From positions 1 through 46,698 of IMG/VR virus record IMGVR_UViG_3300031785_000008: DNA of 46,698 bases. One strand, 5' to 3'. This document shows positions 7,697 to 45,995 of the stretch, piece by piece. The DNA is from a virus. Positions within the stretch are counted from its first letter, which is position 1, and each line of letters opens with the position of its first letter. The translations under genes and the position numbers were made by a program. The notes below the pieces were generated by a model. That model did no database searches, had not been told where the DNA came from, and worked only from the letters and a program-made list of their open reading frames with translations.

Positions 7697-10664
7697 GAGT
7701 ATAAAAATTGTTGTTATAAGCTCCTTCCCATGTCATATATAAAATGTTGGCTGGAGCTGGGTGTTCTGATTTAACTGTTAAGATTGCGTTTGTATTTCTA
7801 GCGTAAATAGGTACTGAATGTAATTTATTGTCTTCACGAATTGCTGCTGTGTTAGCTACATATGTATTGGCATTAGTTACTTCAAATTCTTTCGTAAATA
7901 AATTTTTACCAACTACATTTAATTCTGTTTTATATAAACCGATTGGACCAAATCCAAATTTAACTCTATGGATCATTGTATTTGCTCTGCTATCAGCTCT
8001 ATATGTTTCTCCTTCTACTCGTGTTACATAAATAGTTGGGAGAACAACTTGCATAGTAAATTGATATCCAATAAAAAATGTTTCGTTTGACCAATTACCA
8101 TCTAGTTCTAAATTAGATCCATTAATTGTTATTAAACCATATCTACCTAAGTTGTTTCCCGGGTCTTCATCATAAGCAACTAATTGATTTGTACTTTCTA
8201 GACCAAGTGGTTTAGCTTTTGTAGATTTTTTAGTTGTAGCATTATATGACCAACCACTTGTTTCCATTAAATGATCTAAATGAATCCTACTTCCTGATAT
8301 CAAAGCAGTATTAGCATCCGTCTTTATTGCATATTTAAGTAACTGATCTTTGTTACTTGAACCATTTCTAACAACTACGTATAGATTGTCATCTTGCATA
8401 CAGTGATATTGAATTTCTCCAGTCACTGTCCATTTAAACCAAGCTGCTAATTTTCTTTCTCTAATATTGTCAAAGTATCTATAACCATACAGTGTTGATG
8501 TCCCTTCTTCACTAAAAAATATAACTGAGTTTTCTCTAGAGTTAGATATAAGTTTTAAATCTTTTTCAAATAACCTAGGTACAACTGCACTTTGTTCAAT
8601 AATCTCAGGTTCACCTTCTCTTTGTAGCTGAGCCATCTCAAAGAATCTTGAGAACTTACCAGCGTTATCTAAGAACCCGATAGTAGTACCAAGAGAGATA
8701 GGATTTGTAGCAAAGTTAAAGTTGTAAGTAGAAAGAGCATTGATCTTAGCGGTGGTTGGGCTGAACACGTCACTATCTGTAGTGAGCATGAATTGTTGAT
8801 TTTTTGAAAATAGAATTAGACCTGTATTAGTTTGGATTCCGTCGTATAAAATTGCAGGGTATTCTGAACTAGCTGCTATATCTATAGGGTCACTAGCTAT
8901 AAGTTGTATAGCTGACTTAGCAAAGAAATTTGTAAAGTCTCCGGGACGAGACATAACTATATTTTCATCAGCTAATATTGCAAATCTGTTTCTAAAAAAC
9001 AGCATCTTGTTTATTTCTTTACCAACAAATGATGGTTCTGGATTAGTTACATCATCACCAACTAAAGCATCATCCCATTGTGGAGCTGAAGAAGTTACAT
9101 TACCACTAGCAGTAGTAACTGTGTAAGAAGATCCATCTAATTCAGTCAATCTAAAGTTACCGTCAGCAGTTCTTATAAGAGCTATTGGCATAGTTGACCT
9201 TTTAAGTCTTATCTTTCTTCCGGGTTTAGCACATTCTTCCCATGTACCTTCACCATCTTTATCATTATTTCCAAAGAATTTTACAAAATGATTATCTTCA
9301 TCTGCCTCACTATTTACTATTTCTATTACCATTCCATGTTTACATTGTGAAGGTAGGTCTCCTACATCATTCACTTTGCCTGCTACTACATTTAATAGTT
9401 CTCCTACAGGAGTAGAGGCGTTAAATGCTGATGATTGTTTTATATGTAATCCCGTACCAATAGTCGTTATATCACTATTAGTAAAATTACCATCAGCTAT
9501 TATTGCTGTTCTGATATCACCGAGAATACTCTCAGCAGTAATAGTTGTTTCAGTATCGAATGGTGTAGGGTTAGGTCTGACTAAAGCAAGGTTAGCTTGT
9601 ACTTTTGATTCACTGGTTGCTTCTATTTCTACTTTATAGTAAGCGTCTTTCATAAATACATAAAAGTAATCACCAGTTAGCCAGCCTTCTCCGCCATGTA
9701 ATAAGTCGTATGTAGTTGTATATCTAGCCTGATATGTAGTTGTCTGAGTATTACCAGAACCTTCTGTATAAGGAACTGACTGACCAGTTGTAGCTATACG
9801 GAAGTATAAATTTTTTCTTCCAGTTTGACTGCCTTGGTTAGATGAATTAAATATATTAACTGTGTAGCTATAGTTTGTATCTGATTCGTTTCCGTTAGCT
9901 AAAGTTCCACCAGTAGCACCGTCGTCAGTTAAGCTTGTACCAGTACTAATGCTAAATATTCGAGTACCTACATTAGGTGCAAAAGCGTCTCTACCATCAC
10001 CAGCGTTAGTACCACATCTACCATTAGGACTGTTACCTCTATCAGCATGTGTCCTCATGTAGTTGTTTGTATCACAATAGTTATTGCTATTGTTGACCAT
10101 AGTTACATTGATACGTGTAGCTGTCGTGACTGTCGAAATATTTGTGTTGTCAAAAATGTTTAACGCATACTGTTTTGCATAACTAATACTTTTTAACTCA
10201 ACAAAAATTTCTTTCCCAAAATTCGTGTCTGGTTCTGTAAGAGTATCCATCTCAACAGTTTTAGTTCTGTTGTTAAGATAAGTGAAATCATTTAGGGTTA
10301 GTGTCTGGATATCTTCATCACCTGTATGAGTCAGGTAATTACTATTTCCGATACCATCAACAACATTTTTTTCTGCACCTGTTAAACAGTCCCATATTCT
10401 GACTGTTCCATCTCTATGTATTTGTCCTATGTATTGTTCATTCTCATCTCGGTAGTAGTGAAACCATCTACCATTTAATGAAGAATTTTTTGTTCCATCA
10501 GATAAAGAAGCCACAAACTTTCCTGCTGGTCTCTTCAATAATCCTTGTGCAATATCAGGTAAAGCGTTAACCATATCTTTAACCTGACCGGGAACTTTAT
10601 ATTCATCAGGTTGTTGTGATATACCCTGAGTTAAATTTGGAATAGTTTGTGTAACGTTTGCCAT
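7689..10664 (-). CDS. Tail tubular protein B (gp12-like nozzle)
   Basis: A 991-aa protein with the typical N-terminus of the family (IPNLTQGISQQPDEYKVPGQ) and the following MVNALPDIAQGLLKRPAGKF block. Gp12 proteins form the six-bladed nozzle of the short tail. A Thr/Asn/Gly-rich insertion (residues about 150-320) makes it longer than T7 gp12 (794 aa). The later part keeps the NKMLFFRNRFAILADENIVMS region of the propeller. The start overlaps the tail tube A stop as TAATG. Confidence 0.92.
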   Translation of the reverse strand: MANVTQTIPNLTQGISQQPDEYKVPGQVKDMVNALPDIAQGLLKRPAGKFVASLSDGTKNSSLNGRWFHYYRDENEQYIGQIHRDGTVRIWDCLTGAEKNVVDGIGNSNYLTHTGDEDIQTLTLNDFTYLNNRTKTVEMDTLTEPDTNFGKEIFVELKSISYAKQYALNIFDNTNISTVTTATRINVTMVNNSNNYCDTNNYMRTHADRGNSPNGRCGTNAGDGRDAFAPNVGTRIFSISTGTSLTDDGATGGTLANGNESDTNYSYTVNIFNSSNQGSQTGRKNLYFRIATTGQSVPYTEGSGNTQTTTYQARYTTTYDLLHGGEGWLTGDYFYVFMKDAYYKVEIEATSESKVQANLALVRPNPTPFDTETTITAESILGDIRTAIIADGNFTNSDITTIGTGLHIKQSSAFNASTPVGELLNVVAGKVNDVGDLPSQCKHGMVIEIVNSEADEDNHFVKFFGNNDKDGEGTWEECAKPGRKIRLKRSTMPIALIRTADGNFRLTELDGSSYTVTTASGNVTSSAPQWDDALVGDDVTNPEPSFVGKEINKMLFFRNRFAILADENIVMSRPGDFTNFFAKSAIQLIASDPIDIAASSEYPAILYDGIQTNTGLILFSKNQQFMLTTDSDVFSPTTAKINALSTYNFNFATNPISLGTTIGFLDNAGKFSRFFEMAQLQREGEPEIIEQSAVVPRLFEKDLKLISNSRENSVIFFSEEGTSTLYGYRYFDNIRERKLAAWFKWTVTGEIQYHCMQDDNLYVVVRNGSSNKDQLLKYAIKTDANTALISGSRIHLDHLMETSGWSYNATTKKSTKAKPLGLESTNQLVAYDEDPGNNLGRYGLITINGSNLELDGNWSNETFFIGYQFTMQVVLPTIYVTRVEGETYRADSRANTMIHRVKFGFGPIGLYKTELNVVGKNLFTKEFEVTNANTYVANTAAIREDNKLHSVPIYARNTNAILTVKSEHPAPANILYMTWEGAYNNNFYTRV

Positions 10665-11324: not shown

Positions 11325-12488
11325 TTAAGCGTTTGCAGGGTATGAAGTACCGAATGCTGTTGGTGCTGTTGCTCCAACATAAAGCTCAACTGCTGCTGCT
11401 GGGTTTAGGAAATCTGCCCCCATAGCCATGCGACCTAATATCACATCGCCTTGGTATACCACGGACACATCTCCAGAAGTTACCTGAACCTGTGGTCCAA
11501 TAGCTTCTACAACTCCGGCTGCCTCTTTCTGGAAAATTAATCCAGCAGATTTAGCGAAGTCTGTGCTGTTACCGTAGTTGTTGTTAAGTCCTGTAACTGA
11601 AGCTCTGCCGTCAGCAAGTGCTGTTCCGACATGTGAACCTAAGTTAGAAGGAGATGTCTCACCTGTAGTTCCGCCATAAGCTACACCATGCTTAGAAAGG
11701 AATGGGATGTTCATTGACTTGTAGATCTTGATGCCTGCAATTTCAATGATTCCATTACCTGACTGTAATGCTGAACCTTGAACGTCTCTGTTGATAAGAC
11801 CGTTAGAACCTATGTCCTGTATAAGTGCGTAGTACTGACGAGGGTTTAGTACAGCTACTCTGCCGCCACTAGAAACTCCTTTTTCGTCAAGAGCTGCTGC
11901 TGCATCATAGAAAGCATTAACTAAGTTGCCTGCGTTGTAAGCATCAGAATCATTAGTTGTTGATCCAACTCTGATCTGTGTTCCACCGGGCTCTACGAAG
12001 TTAGTCTTAGATACAGGAGAAGCCTGTCTTGCACCTTTTGCAATAGCTCTGAAGATGAGTCTGTCATACTTCTCTGCTAATGCGTATCCAATCTTCTTGG
12101 AAATCTCGCCCCTCAATTCAAAATGCGCAAGTGTTTCATCAAGCTCATACACGAAGGCTGAACTGATTAATAGGTCGTCGCATGTAATTGTTTTTTCAGC
12201 TACTGGAGGTGCTCCGTCGCTGTTACCGAGAATGCTGTTTCCGGGTGTATGGAACTCCGCAGTTGTTCTACCTGTGTAGATGAACTGAAGACTCTTTCCA
12301 TTCTTGAGTGTTCTCTTCATTACCAAGTCACGAGCAATAGACTCATGCTGGAAGCCTTTGAACATCTCACCACTGAACAGCTTTAAGTACAATGCTCTAG
12401 CGTCACCGGCACTATTTAACTGACCCTGACGAGTAAGTTGTGCCTTTAATGGAGCTTGAGCTGTCGTATATTGCGTTTGCTGTGCCAT
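11325..12488 (-). CDS. Major capsid protein (gp10-like)
   Basis: A 387-aa major head protein of the T7-like cyanophage type. It starts MAQQTQYTTAQAPLKAQL and contains the HK97-fold landmarks RALYLKLFSGEMFKGFQH, a P-loop-like EFHTPGNSILG and the C-terminal ADFLNPAAAVELYVG. It is preceded by a 186-base untranslated leader with hairpins and a tRNA-like element, and followed by a strong terminator, so its mRNA has defined ends. No Shine-Dalgarno sequence is visible before the ATG; the leader is A/T-rich there. Confidence 0.93.
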   Translation of the reverse strand: MAQQTQYTTAQAPLKAQLTRQGQLNSAGDARALYLKLFSGEMFKGFQHESIARDLVMKRTLKNGKSLQFIYTGRTTAEFHTPGNSILGNSDGAPPVAEKTITCDDLLISSAFVYELDETLAHFELRGEISKKIGYALAEKYDRLIFRAIAKGARQASPVSKTNFVEPGGTQIRVGSTTNDSDAYNAGNLVNAFYDAAAALDEKGVSSGGRVAVLNPRQYYALIQDIGSNGLINRDVQGSALQSGNGIIEIAGIKIYKSMNIPFLSKHGVAYGGTTGETSPSNLGSHVGTALADGRASVTGLNNNYGNSTDFAKSAGLIFQKEAAGVVEAIGPQVQVTSGDVSVVYQGDVILGRMAMGADFLNPAAAVELYVGATAPTAFGTSYPANA

Positions 12489-12641: not shown

Positions 12642-12688
12642 GAATAGGGAGGAGTCGAACCTCCCCTAGGTCACCTATTTGACTATTC
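12642..12688 (-). ncRNA. tRNA acceptor/T-arm minihelix-like element 1
   Basis: Read on the minus strand: 5' GAATA (12688-12684), an 18-base insert, GGGAGG, loop TTCGACT, CCTCCC, then TATTC (12646-12642). The loop matches the tRNA T-loop consensus TTCRANY with the closing G-C pair. The GAATA/TATTC stem stacks directly on the T-stem, giving 11 continuous base pairs. The insert is far too short for D and anticodon arms, so this is not a tRNA gene. It overlaps the end of a 17-aa ORF and lies at the head of the capsid leader. RNase P minimal substrates have this shape; a processing role is an inference. Confidence 0.6.
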
Positions 12689-12728
12689 TTGTGTAAGCAA
12701 CGCCACGATATACGAAAGTAACTTTCAT
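12675..12728 (-). CDS. 17-aa micro-ORF upstream of capsid
   Basis: ATG at 12728 preceded by a good ribosome site (GGAGATAACCATG), encoding MKVTFVYRGVAYTRIVK and then TAG. The sequence resembles the start of the short cyanobacterial DUF4278 proteins (MKLTYRGVSYE-type). Few genes in this genome have so clear a Shine-Dalgarno sequence, which supports translation despite the length. It could be a leader peptide, because it ends inside the minihelix element, or a remnant of a longer DUF4278 gene. Confidence 0.5.
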   Translation of the reverse strand: MKVTFVYRGVAYTRIVK

Positions 12729-12761
12729 GGTTATCTCCATATACTAAGCCCCGTTCCATGC

Positions 12762-13205
12762 TTAGTCGTCATGCGTCCCGTGAGGGATGAACGGACGTTC
12801 TATAGATTCTGCGGTTACTGATGCAAAACTTAGAGTTACTCGTGGTGTTAGTACAACTGGAGTATGATAAATACCTTTAGGTATGTAGAGATACTCTCCC
12901 GGAACTAACGTAACCCATTCATTTTCTATAAAGTATTTCACGCTACCTATTGCTTGTATTATTAATACATCATCTTCATCTTTATGTTTCCCAAAGGTAG
13001 GACTATCAGAAGTTAATGATACATAAACGTGCATGTCACCTTCATCACTAAGCACTTCATCATATGCTTTTTGTAGTGTATTAGGTCTGTAATCGTTATG
13101 TAATACGAATGTAGTACCTAAGATTGTTGCAGTGTTACTATGAACTTCATAATTTAATTTATCAATTACATCAGCCCAACTAATCTGACTGCATATTTTG
13201 TACAT
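12762..13205 (-). CDS. Cupin / JmjC-like protein, putative Fe(II) oxygenase
   Basis: A 147-aa protein from the ATG at 13205; an in-frame GTG at 13244 would add 13 residues. The N-terminus MYKICSQISWADVIDKLNYE resembles cyanobacterial and phage cupins. The core GKHKDEDDVLIIQAIGSVKYFI, a GEYLYIPKGIYHTP turn and a final TLSFASV strand give a jelly roll with a possible HxD...H metal triad. It lies between psbA with its 42-aa partner and the capsid. Substrate unknown. A cupin without catalysis is the alternative. Confidence 0.6.
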   Translation of the reverse strand: MYKICSQISWADVIDKLNYEVHSNTATILGTTFVLHNDYRPNTLQKAYDEVLSDEGDMHVYVSLTSDSPTFGKHKDEDDVLIIQAIGSVKYFIENEWVTLVPGEYLYIPKGIYHTPVVLTPRVTLSFASVTAESIERPFIPHGTHDD

Positions 13206-29976: not shown

Positions 29977-30144
29977 TTAAGAATTAACTACAACTCTTGC
30001 ATATTCATAGCGGGCTGAGTTGTACCCAGCCTCCTTGTGAATTACTCGAAACCCCTTGTCTAGCAAGGCTTTATGGGTTTCGTCCGCGCGTCGTGTAGAC
30101 TCGGGTGAGCTGTCATCATAAACCATATAAATATGGTTATCCAT
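29977..30144 (-). CDS. Unknown early protein, 55 aa
   Basis: The frame opens further upstream, but the ATG at 30144 overlaps the stop of the previous gene (TAATG) and has a strong ribosome site AGGAGG close by. The product MDNHIYMVYDDSSPESTRRA continues DETHKALLDKGFRVIHKEAGYN. The strand-helix-strand pattern suggests a small alpha/beta domain. No family recognised. Confidence 0.75.
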   Translation of the reverse strand: MDNHIYMVYDDSSPESTRRADETHKALLDKGFRVIHKEAGYNSARYEYARVVVNS

Positions 30145-30839
30145 TATGCTACCTCCTGTAGTGACTGATTGACTTTTTTGGACTTGTTGCCATGTGCGAG
30201 GAATGCAACAACGCATGTACGCTTGGACTGTTGGCAAAGACCGCAGTCATTGCAGTTGGTGTCACGTGTTTGAGCTGGACATACTACGACGCGGTGACCG
30301 TCGGGTGTATGTGTGGCTACGTCCTTGCTGTTGTCTACGACAACGACAGCAGGCACGCCCTCGGCTACGCATTCGTCCGCTTGCTGCATGCTCTCGCATG
30401 AGGCGTTGATGGTAAAACCGTTGCGGTTACTGTACTTTACAGCTTCGAGGTTGTGCAAGTACTCGAGACGGTGGTGTGTGTAGGTGTAACCCTTGGCACC
30501 ACTGGATTTGTTAGCATCGACAAGAGACTTGAGCAAGTCAAGTCTGATGAGCTCACGACCATTGACGTCCTTGGTGTAACCAAGGTCGCCAGCTTGGTTG
30601 TGCCTCCATAGCTGACCGCGCTCTAACCCACTAACAAAGTTAGTGAGGTCAGACCAAGTACCACCACGTAGACCGTGGCTGACTTTTTTCCAATGCCAAG
30701 AGACCGGACCGGACTTTGCGTAGCAACCTCCGGATTGTAGGTGTGGACAAGTGCTGGGACATGATGCCTCCTCGGTTGTGGTAACTGGCATCTTGCCAGT
30801 TTTAGCATTGCTGGATTTTTTTGTGATGTGGACTAGCAT
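30144..30839 (-). CDS. Cys-rich conserved phage protein (DUF7227-like)
   Basis: A 231-aa protein with Cys clusters at both ends: SCPSTCPHLQSGGCYAKSGP (residues 27-46) and CPAQ...CNDCGLCQQSKRTCVVAF (about 189-214). In between are QLWRHNQAGDLGY and FTINASCESMQQADE. I recognise the pattern from hypothetical phage proteins of the DUF7227 type; the Cys spacing would suit iron-sulphur or zinc binding. The 30939 gene and a structured spacer precede it. The coding sequence itself holds many short perfect inverted repeats. Confidence 0.75.
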   Translation of the reverse strand: MLVHITKKSSNAKTGKMPVTTTEEASCPSTCPHLQSGGCYAKSGPVSWHWKKVSHGLRGGTWSDLTNFVSGLERGQLWRHNQAGDLGYTKDVNGRELIRLDLLKSLVDANKSSGAKGYTYTHHRLEYLHNLEAVKYSNRNGFTINASCESMQQADECVAEGVPAVVVVDNSKDVATHTPDGHRVVVCPAQTRDTNCNDCGLCQQSKRTCVVAFLAHGNKSKKVNQSLQEVA

Positions 30840-30938
30840 GACAAGATGGAAGTTAGGTGGATAATTAACCCTAAAGGGTTACGGTGTCCTTGCGGAGTTG
30901 AACCGCAAGTGAATACCCAGACACCAGTCTAGCTAAAG
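30840..30938 (-). promoter_or_regulatory. Structured spacer with three stem-loops
   Basis: Three consecutive stem-loops fill this 99-base gap: TAACCC-TAAA-GGGTTA (30866-30881), the tRNA minihelix-like element (30883-30925), and TCTAGC-TAAA-GCTAGA (30928-30943). The outer two share the loop TAAA. No T-run follows, so this does not look like termination. It probably shapes the junction between the first and second early messages. Confidence 0.5.
30883..30925 (-). ncRNA. tRNA acceptor/T-arm minihelix-like element 2
   Basis: Minus strand 5'-3': GGTGTC, a 10-base insert (TGGGTATTCA), CTTGCGG, loop TTCAACT, CCGCAAG, GACACC. The loop fits the tRNA T-loop consensus, with the closing G53-C61 pair. 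The GGTGTC/GACACC stem follows the T-stem without a gap, giving 13 stacked pairs with no mismatch. There is no space for the rest of a tRNA. The same architecture occurs upstream of the capsid gene (12642-12688). Confidence 0.65.
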
Positions 30939-31253
30939 CTAGAAAGGTAGAGCTGCCTTGCTATCGCAAGTAGCACCGACAAACTGGTAGCATAGCTTAC
31001 CAGTAGCGACAGTATTACCGTAAAGGTAATCTCTGACTCTGATAGCTTTCTGTGAAAGCTCTTGTACCCAGAAGCCAAGTGACATGTTGTCGTTAATCAA
31101 TAGATTAACAATCTTAGCTCTGCTAACGTTGGAGTACTTGTACTCATAGCCATTGGTGTAACGAAGTGTCACTGAACCCTTGAAAGGGTTAACCTGTATA
31201 GCTTCTACTGCTGTAGAAGTGCGAGGTGTTGGCTTGATTGAAACGTTGAACAT
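30939..31253 (-). CDS. KTSC-like small protein, first early gene
   Basis: A 104-aa protein MFNVSIKPTPRTSTAVEAIQ, then VNPFKGSVTLRYTNGYEYKY and SNVSRAKIVNLLI. The strand pattern around RYTNGYEYKYSNVS matches the KTSC domain style, known in small phage and bacterial proteins of unclear role. It is the first gene after the long non-coding region and so probably expressed first from a host promoter. Its coding sequence holds about ten short hairpins with perfect stems. Confidence 0.75.
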   Translation of the reverse strand: MFNVSIKPTPRTSTAVEAIQVNPFKGSVTLRYTNGYEYKYSNVSRAKIVNLLINDNMSLGFWVQELSQKAIRVRDYLYGNTVATGKLCYQFVGATCDSKAALPF

Positions 31254-31772: not shown

Positions 31773-32381
31773 TCAGACATTTTTGCCAAAATTTAAGGAC
31801 TTATTTGCTAAATCTATAGACAAACGAAGTTCATCAGAATGTCTTTTTTTATACTCTTCTAATTTAGAAACCCATCCTGTAATAATATATTTTCTTTCGT
31901 CTGGAGCTACTACTCCACGGTGAAAATAAGGAAAGCCTGCTGCCCAGATGTACATATCTCCTGCTATTGGTTGTGCTGTTGTGTTTAAATATATAAACTC
32001 AGTACCTCCGCCTTTTTGGATAGTGTTAAGAAAGATCATCCATGCAAATATTCTCTCTTCACCTGTGCTTTCACAATGTGCTCTGTGACAATAGTTGTTT
32101 GGTTCATATCTCATTAGTTGAGCACCTCCGTTTACTATCCAATCAGTATAGTTAGTTTTAAGTAGAGGGTATTTGTCTACATACTTTCGACATGTATCAT
32201 CAATACCCTTACGAAGATCTGGATGTTCGTAAATATTAATGTTTATTTCTATATCATCCATAGGATGCTCTGGACCTAAATGACCTTGTTCAGCTTTATG
32301 AATATTGTTATCCATCAAATCTATGTACTTTTGACATGTATTAGCAGAAAAACAACTATTTTTTAAAATAAAGTTATCCAT
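31773..32381 (-). CDS. 2OG-Fe(II) oxygenase-like protein, 202 aa
   Basis: A prolyl-4-hydroxylase-type double-stranded beta-helix. It shows NYCHRAHCESTGEERIFAW, with a possible HxE metal pair instead of HxD, then FLNTIQKGGGTEFIYLN and the distal FHRGVVAPDERKYIITGW. In the last segment Lys takes the place of the usual 2OG-binding Arg. It overlaps the talC stop by 8 bases and is the last gene before the non-coding region. Substrate unknown. Confidence 0.8.
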   Translation of the reverse strand: MDNFILKNSCFSANTCQKYIDLMDNNIHKAEQGHLGPEHPMDDIEININIYEHPDLRKGIDDTCRKYVDKYPLLKTNYTDWIVNGGAQLMRYEPNNYCHRAHCESTGEERIFAWMIFLNTIQKGGGTEFIYLNTTAQPIAGDMYIWAAGFPYFHRGVVAPDERKYIITGWVSKLEEYKKRHSDELRLSIDLANKSLNFGKNV

Positions 32382-33030
32382 TATTGTCTATCTGTCCACT
32401 GTCAATCATAAATTGGAACAGTCCTTTATCGGTTAGCACATGTTTGTACATATCGTCGAATACTTTCGGCGGTATGGTGCAAATGTGTGCTCCTGCTGCG
32501 AATGCTCTACCAACTGTTGCAGCATCTCTAATGCTTGCAGCTAATATTTTTGTATCTGTTCTGTTATGGCAAAATACTTTAGCAATATCACGTATTAAAC
32601 CAATACCATCATGTCCGTTGTCGTCTAAACGTCCAACAAACGGTGATACGTAGGTTGCTCCAGCTAATGCACAGAGTATTGCTTGACTAACACTAAACAC
32701 TAAGGTCATATTAACTCTAATACCCATAAATGAAAGGGTTTTACAAGCTTTTATGCCTTCAGGAGTGCAAGGTAGCTTAATAGTTGCTTCATGTGGGTAA
32801 AGTTTCCCATATTGAATGCCATTTAGTATTAATGTTTCCGCATCATGTCCATCTACCTCTATTGAAAGGTCTTTTATACCTATATCTTTAATTAGATCGG
32901 CATATATGTCGTCTGGATCTTTACCACTCTTCTTAATCAGCGTAGGGTTGGTGGTAATCCCTGAGATAACTCCAGAATCAAGTCTTTCGTCTATCTCTTT
33001 AATAATTGCTGTGTCTAAGAACAGCTTCAT
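32374..33030 (-). CDS. talC: Transaldolase, TalC type
   Basis: A 218-aa short-form transaldolase: MKLFLDTAIIKEIDE, GITTNPTLIKKSGKD, a catalytic Lys in EATIKLPCTPEG, VNMTLVFSVSQAILCALAGA and TYVSPFVGRLDDNG. It links glycolytic and pentose phosphate sugars and is a frequent cyanophage metabolic gene, thought to raise pentose and NADPH for dNTPs. It sits at the late end near the genome terminus, as in other T7-like cyanophages. The start overlaps the 27-aa membrane peptide gene (ATGA). Confidence 0.96.
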   Translation of the reverse strand: MKLFLDTAIIKEIDERLDSGVISGITTNPTLIKKSGKDPDDIYADLIKDIGIKDLSIEVDGHDAETLILNGIQYGKLYPHEATIKLPCTPEGIKACKTLSFMGIRVNMTLVFSVSQAILCALAGATYVSPFVGRLDDNGHDGIGLIRDIAKVFCHNRTDTKILAASIRDAATVGRAFAAGAHICTIPPKVFDDMYKHVLTDKGLFQFMIDSGQIDNNG

Positions 33031-43190: not shown

Positions 43191-45995
43191 TTAAAGTGTA
43201 CCGAAATCTATTTGTAAGTTGTCTCCTGAGATAGTTGCTACTTCAGTAAGATTTTTATCGTTGCAATCGAGATGAGAATATAATTCTGGTGTTAAGTCAT
43301 CTACTAAATTTTGGATACCAGAGTTAGATGTAATACCTAACCATGCAGATCCGTTATAGTTTTTAAGTGTTGTGTTAGCTGTATCAAACCATAAATCACC
43401 AGCACTAGGACTTCCGGGTGCAGAACTAGAAATCTTGTATTCATTTGCATATCTGTTTACGTCTGATATAGAACCAGAAACTGTGTTTATATTTGTAGCA
43501 TTAGAAACTGCTGCGTTAATGTTTGAAGCATTAGAAACCGCAGAGTTAATATTACTTGAGTTATTAGCTACAGCCGTAACGTTTGAGTTATTACCAGCGA
43601 CTGTATTGATGTTTGTAGCGTTGGAAACAACAGCATTAATATTTGAAGCGTTGCTAACAGCAGCATTAATATTAGAAGCGTTAGCTTGTACGGCGTTAAT
43701 ATTGGTTGCATTGGCTTGTACCGCATTTATATTTGTTGAATTATTTGCAACTGCGGTAACATTAGAAGCTATACCCCCAACCGTTACAACACTAGAAGCA
43801 ATATCAGCTACAGCTTTAATTGGGTCTTCTACTACAGTTATGGTGTTACCCATTCCTGAATGAGCTGTACAATAATACTGGAAAGAAGTTGGTTGTGATT
43901 CTGGTATTACAATCTGTACTTTTGCACCAGCTTGTCCTTGTGTACCAGTAACTGTAACGTTAGTAGTATATGCACTACCACCACTTTGAAAACGTAATGG
44001 ATGGGTTGCGTTAGAGGCATCACTTACATCAAATGTATATGTCCAGCCTTTGTGTAATGTAAGAGCTGGTTTATCTACACCATCAATAATAAATTTACCT
44101 GTAGCTGCTGTAACAGTGAATGTTTTTTCGTCTTCTAAAGCATCTGCAACTATATCAAGTGAACCGTTAGAACTACCTGTTGATGCAGGATCAGTTATTA
44201 ATCCGAGGTCTTCGGAATAAGTAATCGAACCTGAGACAATAGCAATATCATCAAGAACACTCTGTGCAGGGGTGATGATAGCCCAATTAGTCCCGTCATA
44301 TACCCGTAAATTATCATTGGAATTATCAAACCATAAATCACCGTCTTGTAAACTTGTTCCATCTGCTCTTTGTGTAGGCGCACTGCCTGAAATTTGATAT
44401 ATATCAGCAAAGTTATTTATATCTACTACGTTTGCACCAGCATTAACAATGTTAGTAATGTTAGAAGCAACAGTATTAACTTGAGTTGCTATAGGTACTA
44501 ATCTATGGAAACTGTATGTATGTGTTGTAGATGTTGACTCTACTAAGAAACCAAAGTTCTGTGGAATTGCTGTAGGTACACCTGTAATAGTTACAGTGTT
44601 TCCTGTTCCTGCACCATTTGCAATAGTAAGAGTCGTACCAGTAGGAGTTAATGTTGTACTTGCAGCTTGAATACTTAATATAGCTGACTGACCTGTAGCT
44701 CCTTGTGGGTTAGTTGTAGGAAAGCTAGTTTCATTAGCAATAGCTGTAAAACCACCAACCTCGTCAATAAGGTCAATAATCCTAGCATTAATAGCAGCAG
44801 TAGTAGCCACAAATGCATCAGAATTAGACCATGAAACTCCACTAGCTATAGTTTCAGAAGAGTCTTGTCTAAGGAACTTAGCTTCAGCTTCTGTTTCTGT
44901 GTAATATCTAGCATCTAATACGTTTTGACCAGCACTAGCAGAAGGGTTAAGTTCTGTTTCTGTGTAATATCTGTTATCTAATGTACCTGTTGCTATTTCA
45001 GAATTAGTTAATTTATCTGACTGTAATAGTGTTTTTATTTCAGCAGCAGTCTGATCGGCTGTAGCTGCTGTTTCTATACCAGCTAATTTAGTTTGTTCGG
45101 CATCACTAAACTCGTTAGTATCTGCATTAGCTTCGTATGCAGTTTTTATTTCTGCATTAGTCTGGTCTGCTGTAGCTCCAGCTTCAATACCATCAAGTTT
45201 TGTACCATCAGTTGATACATTTCTTCCATCAACAGTTCCACCAACAACTATGTTTCCAGTTGTTTGTACAACCTGTGAACCAAAATTAGGTGCAATTTTA
45301 GTACCAGCAATAGCTGCTGATCCGTTAATGTCAGCATCAACTATTGTTCCATCAACTATGTTGGCACTCGCTACTGTTACGTTTGTAGGTAATGAGCCAG
45401 AACTTAATTTAGTAGGAGGGACACTTGTATTAGCTAATTTTGTACCATTAATATCTGCCGAGTTACTTATGTCATCATTAACAATAGAACCATTAACAAT
45501 GTTTGCTGAGTTTACTGTTATGCCAGACTTAAGTAAGCCATCAGCAATCTTACTATTATCTATTGCTGCACTTGCGTTGATGTCAGCATTGACAATAGTG
45601 TCATCTGCAATCTCAGTAGAAGTAACTGCTCCTGCTTTAATATTTGCTGTAATTATTTTATTTCTGTGCTCAACAGCAGCAAACCTACCCATATCATGTA
45701 TGGCATTAAGATCGGCTGCTCTAATAGATGAACCAGCAGCAAATGTAGCTGCTGCTGTATTTACATCTGTTTCTCTATATATATGGACATTACCGCTACC
45801 TGATGGAGCTGCTGCTCCTAAAGTAACTGTGGTTCCACTTACGGAGTACTCACCACTACCGGGAGTACCTGTTACGTATGTTTGTAAAGTTCCACCAATT
45901 CTTACCTTGATGTCGCTTGCTTGTAAATATTCAATTGTAATGGCGTATGAGGTGGCACCACCATTTTTAAATTCTTCAGTTGTTTGTACCGCCAT
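43191..45995 (-). CDS. Tail fibre protein (gp17-like) with cupredoxin-like insert
   Basis: A 934-aa fibre with a T7 gp17 N-terminal domain (residues 1-110) for tail docking. Next come repeats of the ADINGSAAIAGTKI type (130-240) and coiled segments. A beta domain at about residues 620-725 has the blue-copper pattern: THPLRFQ, then YYCTAHSGMGN. Then come tandem NINAVxxNA repeats (about 740-840) and a C-terminal shaft. No chaperone domain is seen. The start is ATG at 45995; the same region is present as another allele at 2-457. Confidence 0.93.
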   Translation of the reverse strand: MAVQTTEEFKNGGATSYAITIEYLQASDIKVRIGGTLQTYVTGTPGSGEYSVSGTTVTLGAAAPSGSGNVHIYRETDVNTAAATFAAGSSIRAADLNAIHDMGRFAAVEHRNKIITANIKAGAVTSTEIADDTIVNADINASAAIDNSKIADGLLKSGITVNSANIVNGSIVNDDISNSADINGTKLANTSVPPTKLSSGSLPTNVTVASANIVDGTIVDADINGSAAIAGTKIAPNFGSQVVQTTGNIVVGGTVDGRNVSTDGTKLDGIEAGATADQTNAEIKTAYEANADTNEFSDAEQTKLAGIETAATADQTAAEIKTLLQSDKLTNSEIATGTLDNRYYTETELNPSASAGQNVLDARYYTETEAEAKFLRQDSSETIASGVSWSNSDAFVATTAAINARIIDLIDEVGGFTAIANETSFPTTNPQGATGQSAILSIQAASTTLTPTGTTLTIANGAGTGNTVTITGVPTAIPQNFGFLVESTSTTHTYSFHRLVPIATQVNTVASNITNIVNAGANVVDINNFADIYQISGSAPTQRADGTSLQDGDLWFDNSNDNLRVYDGTNWAIITPAQSVLDDIAIVSGSITYSEDLGLITDPASTGSSNGSLDIVADALEDEKTFTVTAATGKFIIDGVDKPALTLHKGWTYTFDVSDASNATHPLRFQSGGSAYTTNVTVTGTQGQAGAKVQIVIPESQPTSFQYYCTAHSGMGNTITVVEDPIKAVADIASSVVTVGGIASNVTAVANNSTNINAVQANATNINAVQANASNINAAVSNASNINAVVSNATNINTVAGNNSNVTAVANNSSNINSAVSNASNINAAVSNATNINTVSGSISDVNRYANEYKISSSAPGSPSAGDLWFDTANTTLKNYNGSAWLGITSNSGIQNLVDDLTPELYSHLDCNDKNLTEVATISGDNLQIDFGTL
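43480..43775 (-). repeat. Tandem coding repeats in the tail fibre
   Basis: About eleven copies of a short unit that translates as NINAVxxNAT/S (NVTAVANNSS variants) run in tandem. The unit is about 24-27 bases and A/T-rich, with GCATTAATATT-like cores. In protein it should make a repetitive fibrous shaft. Such repeats expand and contract by slippage and recombination and can change fibre length. Confidence 0.75.

Follow-up and report, generated by a model that had tools for sequence, protein, structure and literature searches.

Conserved mini-tRNA elements between genes of T7-like cyanophages: candidate punctuation of phage mRNA by host tRNA-processing enzymes

The nature of a small tRNA-like element lying between two early genes of a virus genome was analysed. 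The DNA under study (IMG/VR record IMGVR_UViG_3300031785_000008, 46,698 nucleotides, called the window throughout) is that of a T7-like cyanophage (Autographiviridae) having its genes on the minus strand, and the isolates nearest to it are P-GSP1, P-SSP2, P-SSP3 and P-SSP7. The question raised by the locus is whether the element is a captured or decaying piece of a tRNA, or a structure which the phage keeps for its own messages. The features are summarized in Table 1. On the same strand, positions 31773-32381 encode a protein matching PHROGs for 2OG-Fe(II) oxygenase, which adjoins transaldolase (32374-33030).

Table 1. Features of the early locus and of the capsid slot in the window
Feature	Positions	Strand	Description
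Upstream early gene	30939..31253	minus	104 aa, phrog_7365, function unknown
Upstream hairpin	30928..30943	minus	TCTAGC-TTTA-GCTAGA; includes the stop codon of the 104-aa gene
Mini-tRNA (early element)	30883..30925	minus (transcribed)	sequence, fold, conservation with compensatory changes
Acceptor-like stem	30925-30920 with 30888-30883	minus	6 bp, GGTGTC with GACACC
Insert	30919-30910	minus	10 nt, TGGGTATTCA
T-arm	30909-30889	minus	7 bp, loop TTCAACT; CTTGCGG-TTCAACT-CCGCAAG
Downstream hairpin	30866..30881	minus	TAACCC-TTTA-GGGTTA
Downstream early gene	30144..30839	minus	231 aa, phrog_2554, function unknown
Glutamine-II (downstream-peptide) riboswitch aptamer	12744..12796	minus	Rfam RF01704, 47.9 bits
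17-aa 'downstream peptide' ORF	12675..12728	minus	MKVTFVYRGVAYTRIVK; read by eye
Second element, hairpin-insert form	12642..12688	minus	upstream of the major capsid gene; scanner
Major capsid gene	11325..12488	minus	phrog_27239 / phrog_267

The fold of the early element was computed. The MFE structure of the 43-mer was the stacked fold of 6 and 7 base pairs (-17.1 kcal/mol, z -3.0; equalled by 3 of 200 shuffles), which holds 13 Watson-Crick pairs, or 14 when a flanking U.G is counted. The 13 stacked pairs, the T-loop and the 10-base insert given in the preliminary description are thereby confirmed by sequence and fold. The T-loop fits the consensus TTCRANY and is G-C closed on the stacked stem (GG-TTCAACT-CC), and together with the stacked fold it supports the claimed likeness to a tRNA minihelix. 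The 13 bp correspond to the stacked acceptor/T-arm helix of about 12 bp of an RNase P substrate, and an unpaired 10-nt insert stands where the anticodon arm and D-arm of a tRNA would be. The MFE of the 121-nt context (z -3.7) retained the T-arm and both flanking hairpins, with the acceptor partly open. The spacing from the stop codon (30939-30941) is 13 nt and not 14 as first described; the two hairpins said to have TAAA loops do flank the element, their loops reading TTTA on the transcribed strand. A reading of the element as a terminator was rejected, being without a T-run 3' of the element. The Syn5 RNA polymerase promoter was likewise rejected as an explanation of the downstream hairpin; in Syn5 the promoter consensus matched at two positions, 4929 and 44797, both away from the elements.

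Conservation was analysed in an IMG/VR set of 72 loci anchored on the phrog_7365 gene, 68 of which had enough downstream sequence. A T-arm was found within about 330 nt downstream of the gene in 57 of these 68 and on the opposite strand in none; the 11 loci without it were L090 and the ten most divergent ones (L148-L157). An acceptor of at least 5 bp accompanied 43 of 45 distinct T-arms, compared to 23% of shuffled controls. When 26 distinct elements having a 10-nt insert were aligned, pairing held in 94% of cells (0 of 500 shuffles as high; 38-47% for slid versions of the alignment), a percentage that is partly circular as the set was chosen by a scanner demanding pairing, the compensatory changes being less so. 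Changes on both sides occurred at 7 of the 14 pairs, in both stems, and G-U pairs were present. The P-GSP1 element stands at the same place, with an acceptor differing on both sides at two pairs. The length of the stack varied between 11 and 14 bp, with one of 16 and one of 10, rather than being a strict 12. A MAFFT alignment of 20 diverse minimal elements misaligned the acceptor and was left out of the counts. Of 46 distinct relatives, 41 had a hairpin upstream of the early element, against 4.8 in the control; a hairpin 0-6 nt downstream accompanied 33 of 46 distinct early elements, against 3.4 in the control. The compensatory changes in both stems and the retention among the anchored loci indicate selection on the structure. 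The structure is thus kept in close relatives, P-GSP1 included, where its absence had been named beforehand as the result that would count against it.

Across the whole window the strict stem scanner found two mini-tRNA elements, both on the minus strand, the second being that at 12642-12688. Its acceptor is GAATAG/CTATTC and its T-arm GGAGG-TTCGACT-CCTCC, the insert has 18 nt versus 10 nt in the early element, and the acceptor is absent from its own MFE. The same slot is filled in P-GSP1, P-SSP7, P-SSP2, P-SSP3 and IMG/VR contigs. By the test used for the early class, a strong downstream hairpin was scarce in capsid-slot elements (1 of 27, control 1.8). In the window the Glutamine-II riboswitch comes first, then the 17-aa peptide ORF, which at its end runs into the 5' side of the mini-tRNA, and then the phage capsid gene. 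The capsid 5' leader lying 3' of the slot element appeared by eye to be conserved and structured (for example loci L185, L211 and L233), in the order TTGGC-N4-GCC, a small hairpin, ATACC and a GCCGTC hairpin.

The capsid slot was further analysed in 80 capsid-anchored loci, 70 of them with enough upstream sequence. A mini-tRNA was present in 32 of the 70 and an unrelated hairpin, with CACCTCAGAG as the start of its loop, in 30; none had both, and 8 had neither, a mini-tRNA with a loop variant or mismatch being seen by eye in 7 of the 8. The alternative hairpin has a near-invariant 15-nt loop, CACCUCAGAGUCGGA, on a variable stem of usually 5-10 bp, and a capsid homologue lies directly downstream of it in all 77 testable IMG/VR contigs. 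Its carriers include the loci L174, L180 and L182 and the genomes of S-RIP2, S-CBP1, 9515-10a, NATL2A-133, SS120-1 and S-SRP01. An Rfam scan of five loci with this hairpin gave no match, and it is possibly a new, undescribed phage RNA motif.

The wider occurrence of the elements was analysed in 15 T7-like cyanophage genomes using the strict scanner (T-stem and acceptor of at least 5 bp each, T-loop pattern, G-C closing pair). The scan gave 24 matches, all 24 on the transcribed strand, the chance rate from Markov controls being 0.067 per genome for both strands. The matches recur in two kinds of place: in early-gene gaps, and ahead of the capsid gene at a distance of about 150-200 nt. Most of them lie in gaps or slightly overlap annotated gene ends; three are located within, or extend across, short ORFs predicted in P-SSP2 and P-SSP3, and the single match of P60, inside the tail-fibre gene, is probably due to chance. 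The strict scan found no element in S-CBP1, SS120-1 and S-SRP01 and none in T7 and CRP-125, and HTVC019P showed one match at threshold and an apparent tRNA, by our reading, opposite to the gene strand. A relaxed scan of the 15 genomes gave 39 matches (37 transcribed, 2 opposite strand) with a control of 17.5, and due to this high background the strict scanner was relied on. Likely or plausible members seen by the relaxed scan only are P-SSP2 8801-8838, P-SSP3 43662-43699, S-TIP37 986-1033 and 1441-1486, and Syn5 2699-2746; hairpins downstream of these members were noted by eye in all four genomes.

Searching with R1, a covariance model of the early class, recovered P-GSP1, the window and NATL2A-133 (E 7.8e-7) and missed the capsid-slot class, so a single sequence family was rejected as a description of the mini-tRNAs. 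This result is in accordance with the claim that the two elements of the window are unrelated in sequence, the element at 12642 being missed as a homologue. Both do lie on the transcribed strand, as had been stated, and in gaps or at gene ends, and the plan recurs at the same places in relatives. The single architecture proposed for the two stands as a shared plan, which in fact is a range running from inserts of 8-12 nt over hairpin inserts (P-SSP7, S-RIP2, 9515-10a) to full tRNAs in the same positions, the predicted folds grading from a cloverleaf by way of a three-way form to the minimal stack. In three contigs (L145-L147) ARAGORN identified tRNA-Asp, placed 63-64 nt beyond the phrog_7365 gene, and in NATL1A-7 it identified tRNA-Gly(TCC) ahead of the capsid gene, where this tRNA is annotated too; the element of L193 was judged tRNA-like by eye. 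ARAGORN calls of tRNA-Arg in L113 and L128 overlap mini elements and a gene end and were taken as artefacts. The short inserts (8-12 nt) contained GG in 37 of 38 cases versus 22.9 expected by shuffling, these sequences being related. CCA directly 3' of the element was found in 0 of 90 distinct elements, as suits the tRNA-like 3' side of an RNase Z substrate. ARAGORN gave no tRNA in the window, Rfam gave no match at E<=10 for 30700-31100, and Rfam release 15 run on the window gave only the Glutamine-II riboswitch, elsewhere, so that the mini-tRNAs match no curated family. Such elements were not found described in the open-licence literature searched, and the available parts of PMC4919913, PMC10989914, PMC12197685, PMC11221534, PMC2864571, PMC4810235 and PMC11143913 do not describe them; in that of PMC2864571, which covers the downstream-peptide riboswitch, the terms 'tRNA-like' and 'T-loop' do not occur.

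The favoured reading, which we consider rather likely, is that the element is a mini-tRNA punctuating the polycistronic phage mRNA, with predicted excision by host RNase P on the 5' side and RNase Z on the 3' side. As the tRNA shape persists at these places in relatives, in some of them with a complete tRNA, the tRNA-trimming enzymes of the host probably cut the phage messages. The occurrence of full tRNA and minimal stack in the same slots likewise suggests recognition by tRNA-processing enzymes as their common feature. According to the available part of PMC11221534, RNase P contacts the acceptor and T-stems, and the rest of the tRNA is dispensable for binding; any RNA presenting the acceptor/T-stem stack can be cleaved by it, as the available part of PMC4919913 states. 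The acceptor/T-arm stack with the consensus T-loop would then be the feature recognised by host RNase P, and the GG of the insert could substitute for G18G19 of the D-loop. By cutting 5' of the acceptor, RNase P would free the upstream mRNA with a hairpin-capped 3' end. On the 3' side the cut would be made by RNase Z, an enzyme suited to precursors in which CCA is not encoded, and the downstream mRNA would be freed with a 5' hairpin. The flanking hairpins of the early elements would protect the new mRNA ends, the capsid-slot element may set the capsid mRNA apart from the riboswitch/peptide leader, and the excised piece would be a short RNA of some 43-45 nt. From the observed structure, conservation, strand and place, the flanking hairpins of the early class and the exchange with full tRNAs, we infer cutting by RNase P and RNase Z here and stabilisation of the ends. 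One Prochlorococcus genome, which may not be that of the phage's host, has RNase Z and an RNase P RNA of class A, and encodes CCA in 1 of the 30 tRNAs compared, with which the lack of CCA in the elements agrees.

Several points stand against this mechanism. The stack length is variable, and the acceptor is missing from the MFE in the capsid slot or partly open for the early element in its 121-nt context. The capsid class lacks a strong downstream hairpin, and there are element-free genomes and divergent loci. Bacterial RNase P often favours an RCCA 3' end, which is absent from these elements; the cyanobacterial enzyme may be less dependent on RCCA. A broader version, in which transcripts are cut at exchangeable modules, is put forward tentatively and is on balance doubtful. 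The full tRNA, the tRNA with one spare hairpin and the minimal elbow would then form a series reduced to the needs of RNase P and RNase Z, and the unrelated 15-nt-loop hairpin that replaces them before the capsid gene may either mark a processing site or cleave itself.

The alternative readings were weighed on the same evidence. Capture of a host tRNA 3' end as an attachment site, raised in the preliminary description, has in its favour the T-arm likeness and the integrase carried by related phages such as P-SSP7. Of 151 Prochlorococcus genomes, however, none contained the 21-nt T-arm when up to 3 mismatches were allowed, and the longest exact match of the element to the 30 tRNAs compared from one Prochlorococcus genome was 8 nt, so that the comparison with host tRNA genes yielded no long identity. 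A search for tyrosine integrase (PF00589) in the window gave no match, in agreement with the earlier remark that no integrase is visible, and several copies of the element occur per genome. This reading is already refuted for Prochlorococcus and is given practically no credence. The full tRNAs in the same slots of some relatives make descent from tRNA plausible and would also suit functionless, decaying phage tRNA genes, but the compensatory changes in both stems, with none of the 500 shuffles equally paired, and the retained T-arms disfavour decay; it was rejected on the covariation and is hardly credible. Nested inverted repeats acting at the DNA level, as a protein site, promoter or origin, would covary too. 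They would not account for a tRNA-like, strand-specific loop with every strict match on the transcribed strand, nor for G-U pairs and a sequence that is not one conserved motif, and such a repeat is very improbable.

The remaining two readings keep a role for the RNA. A structural cap that stays uncut, in which a stable RNA would block exonucleases or RNase E and the tRNA likeness would be secondary, would agree with the hairpins on both sides and with the induction of host RNase E during infection by the related phage P-SSP7 (available part of PMC10989914). It leaves the consensus T-loop, the insert GG and the exchange with full tRNAs unexplained, as any stable hairpin would suffice, and is regarded as unlikely. 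A trans-acting small RNA mimicking tRNA, for example a decoy for T-arm enzymes or for a tRNA-binding factor, is supported by the conserved T-loop and strand and by the RNA that the predicted excision would set free. The sequence varies widely among the phages while the place and flanking hairpins are kept, which indicates a role in cis, and a trans-acting function is thus considered quite improbable.

The punctuation reading was compared with known systems. The minihelix substrates of RNase P (acceptor and T stem-loop, such as pATSer) consist of the same stack and T-loop and little else; these are laboratory constructs, whereas the phage element is a natural, conserved mRNA element with no RCCA and an insert of 8-20 nt. 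The tRNA punctuation of mitochondrial transcripts likewise uses tRNA-shaped elements between genes to mark cutting sites for RNase P and RNase Z; unlike there, the elements described here are mostly reduced tRNAs in a DNA phage, and the cutting is predicted. The early mRNA of T7 is processed by RNase III at sites between early genes, a position shared in this T7-like phage, but the structure and the presumed enzyme differ, and T7 itself holds no mini-tRNA by the scanner. Phage C4 antisense RNA, phage M3 RNA and polycistronic E. coli mRNAs are non-tRNA substrates of RNase P (available part of PMC11143913), phage or mRNA targets of the kind proposed here; no sequence or family relation of these to the mini-tRNAs, and no Rfam match, was found.

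If the punctuation reading is true, a widespread marine phage group organises its gene expression by tRNA-like punctuation, which is best known from mitochondria. It would explain how mRNA ends are set in hosts where related infection raises RNase E. The elements would further be a naturally occurring set of reduced RNase P substrates, with which the minimal tRNA needed by RNase P in vivo would become directly testable.
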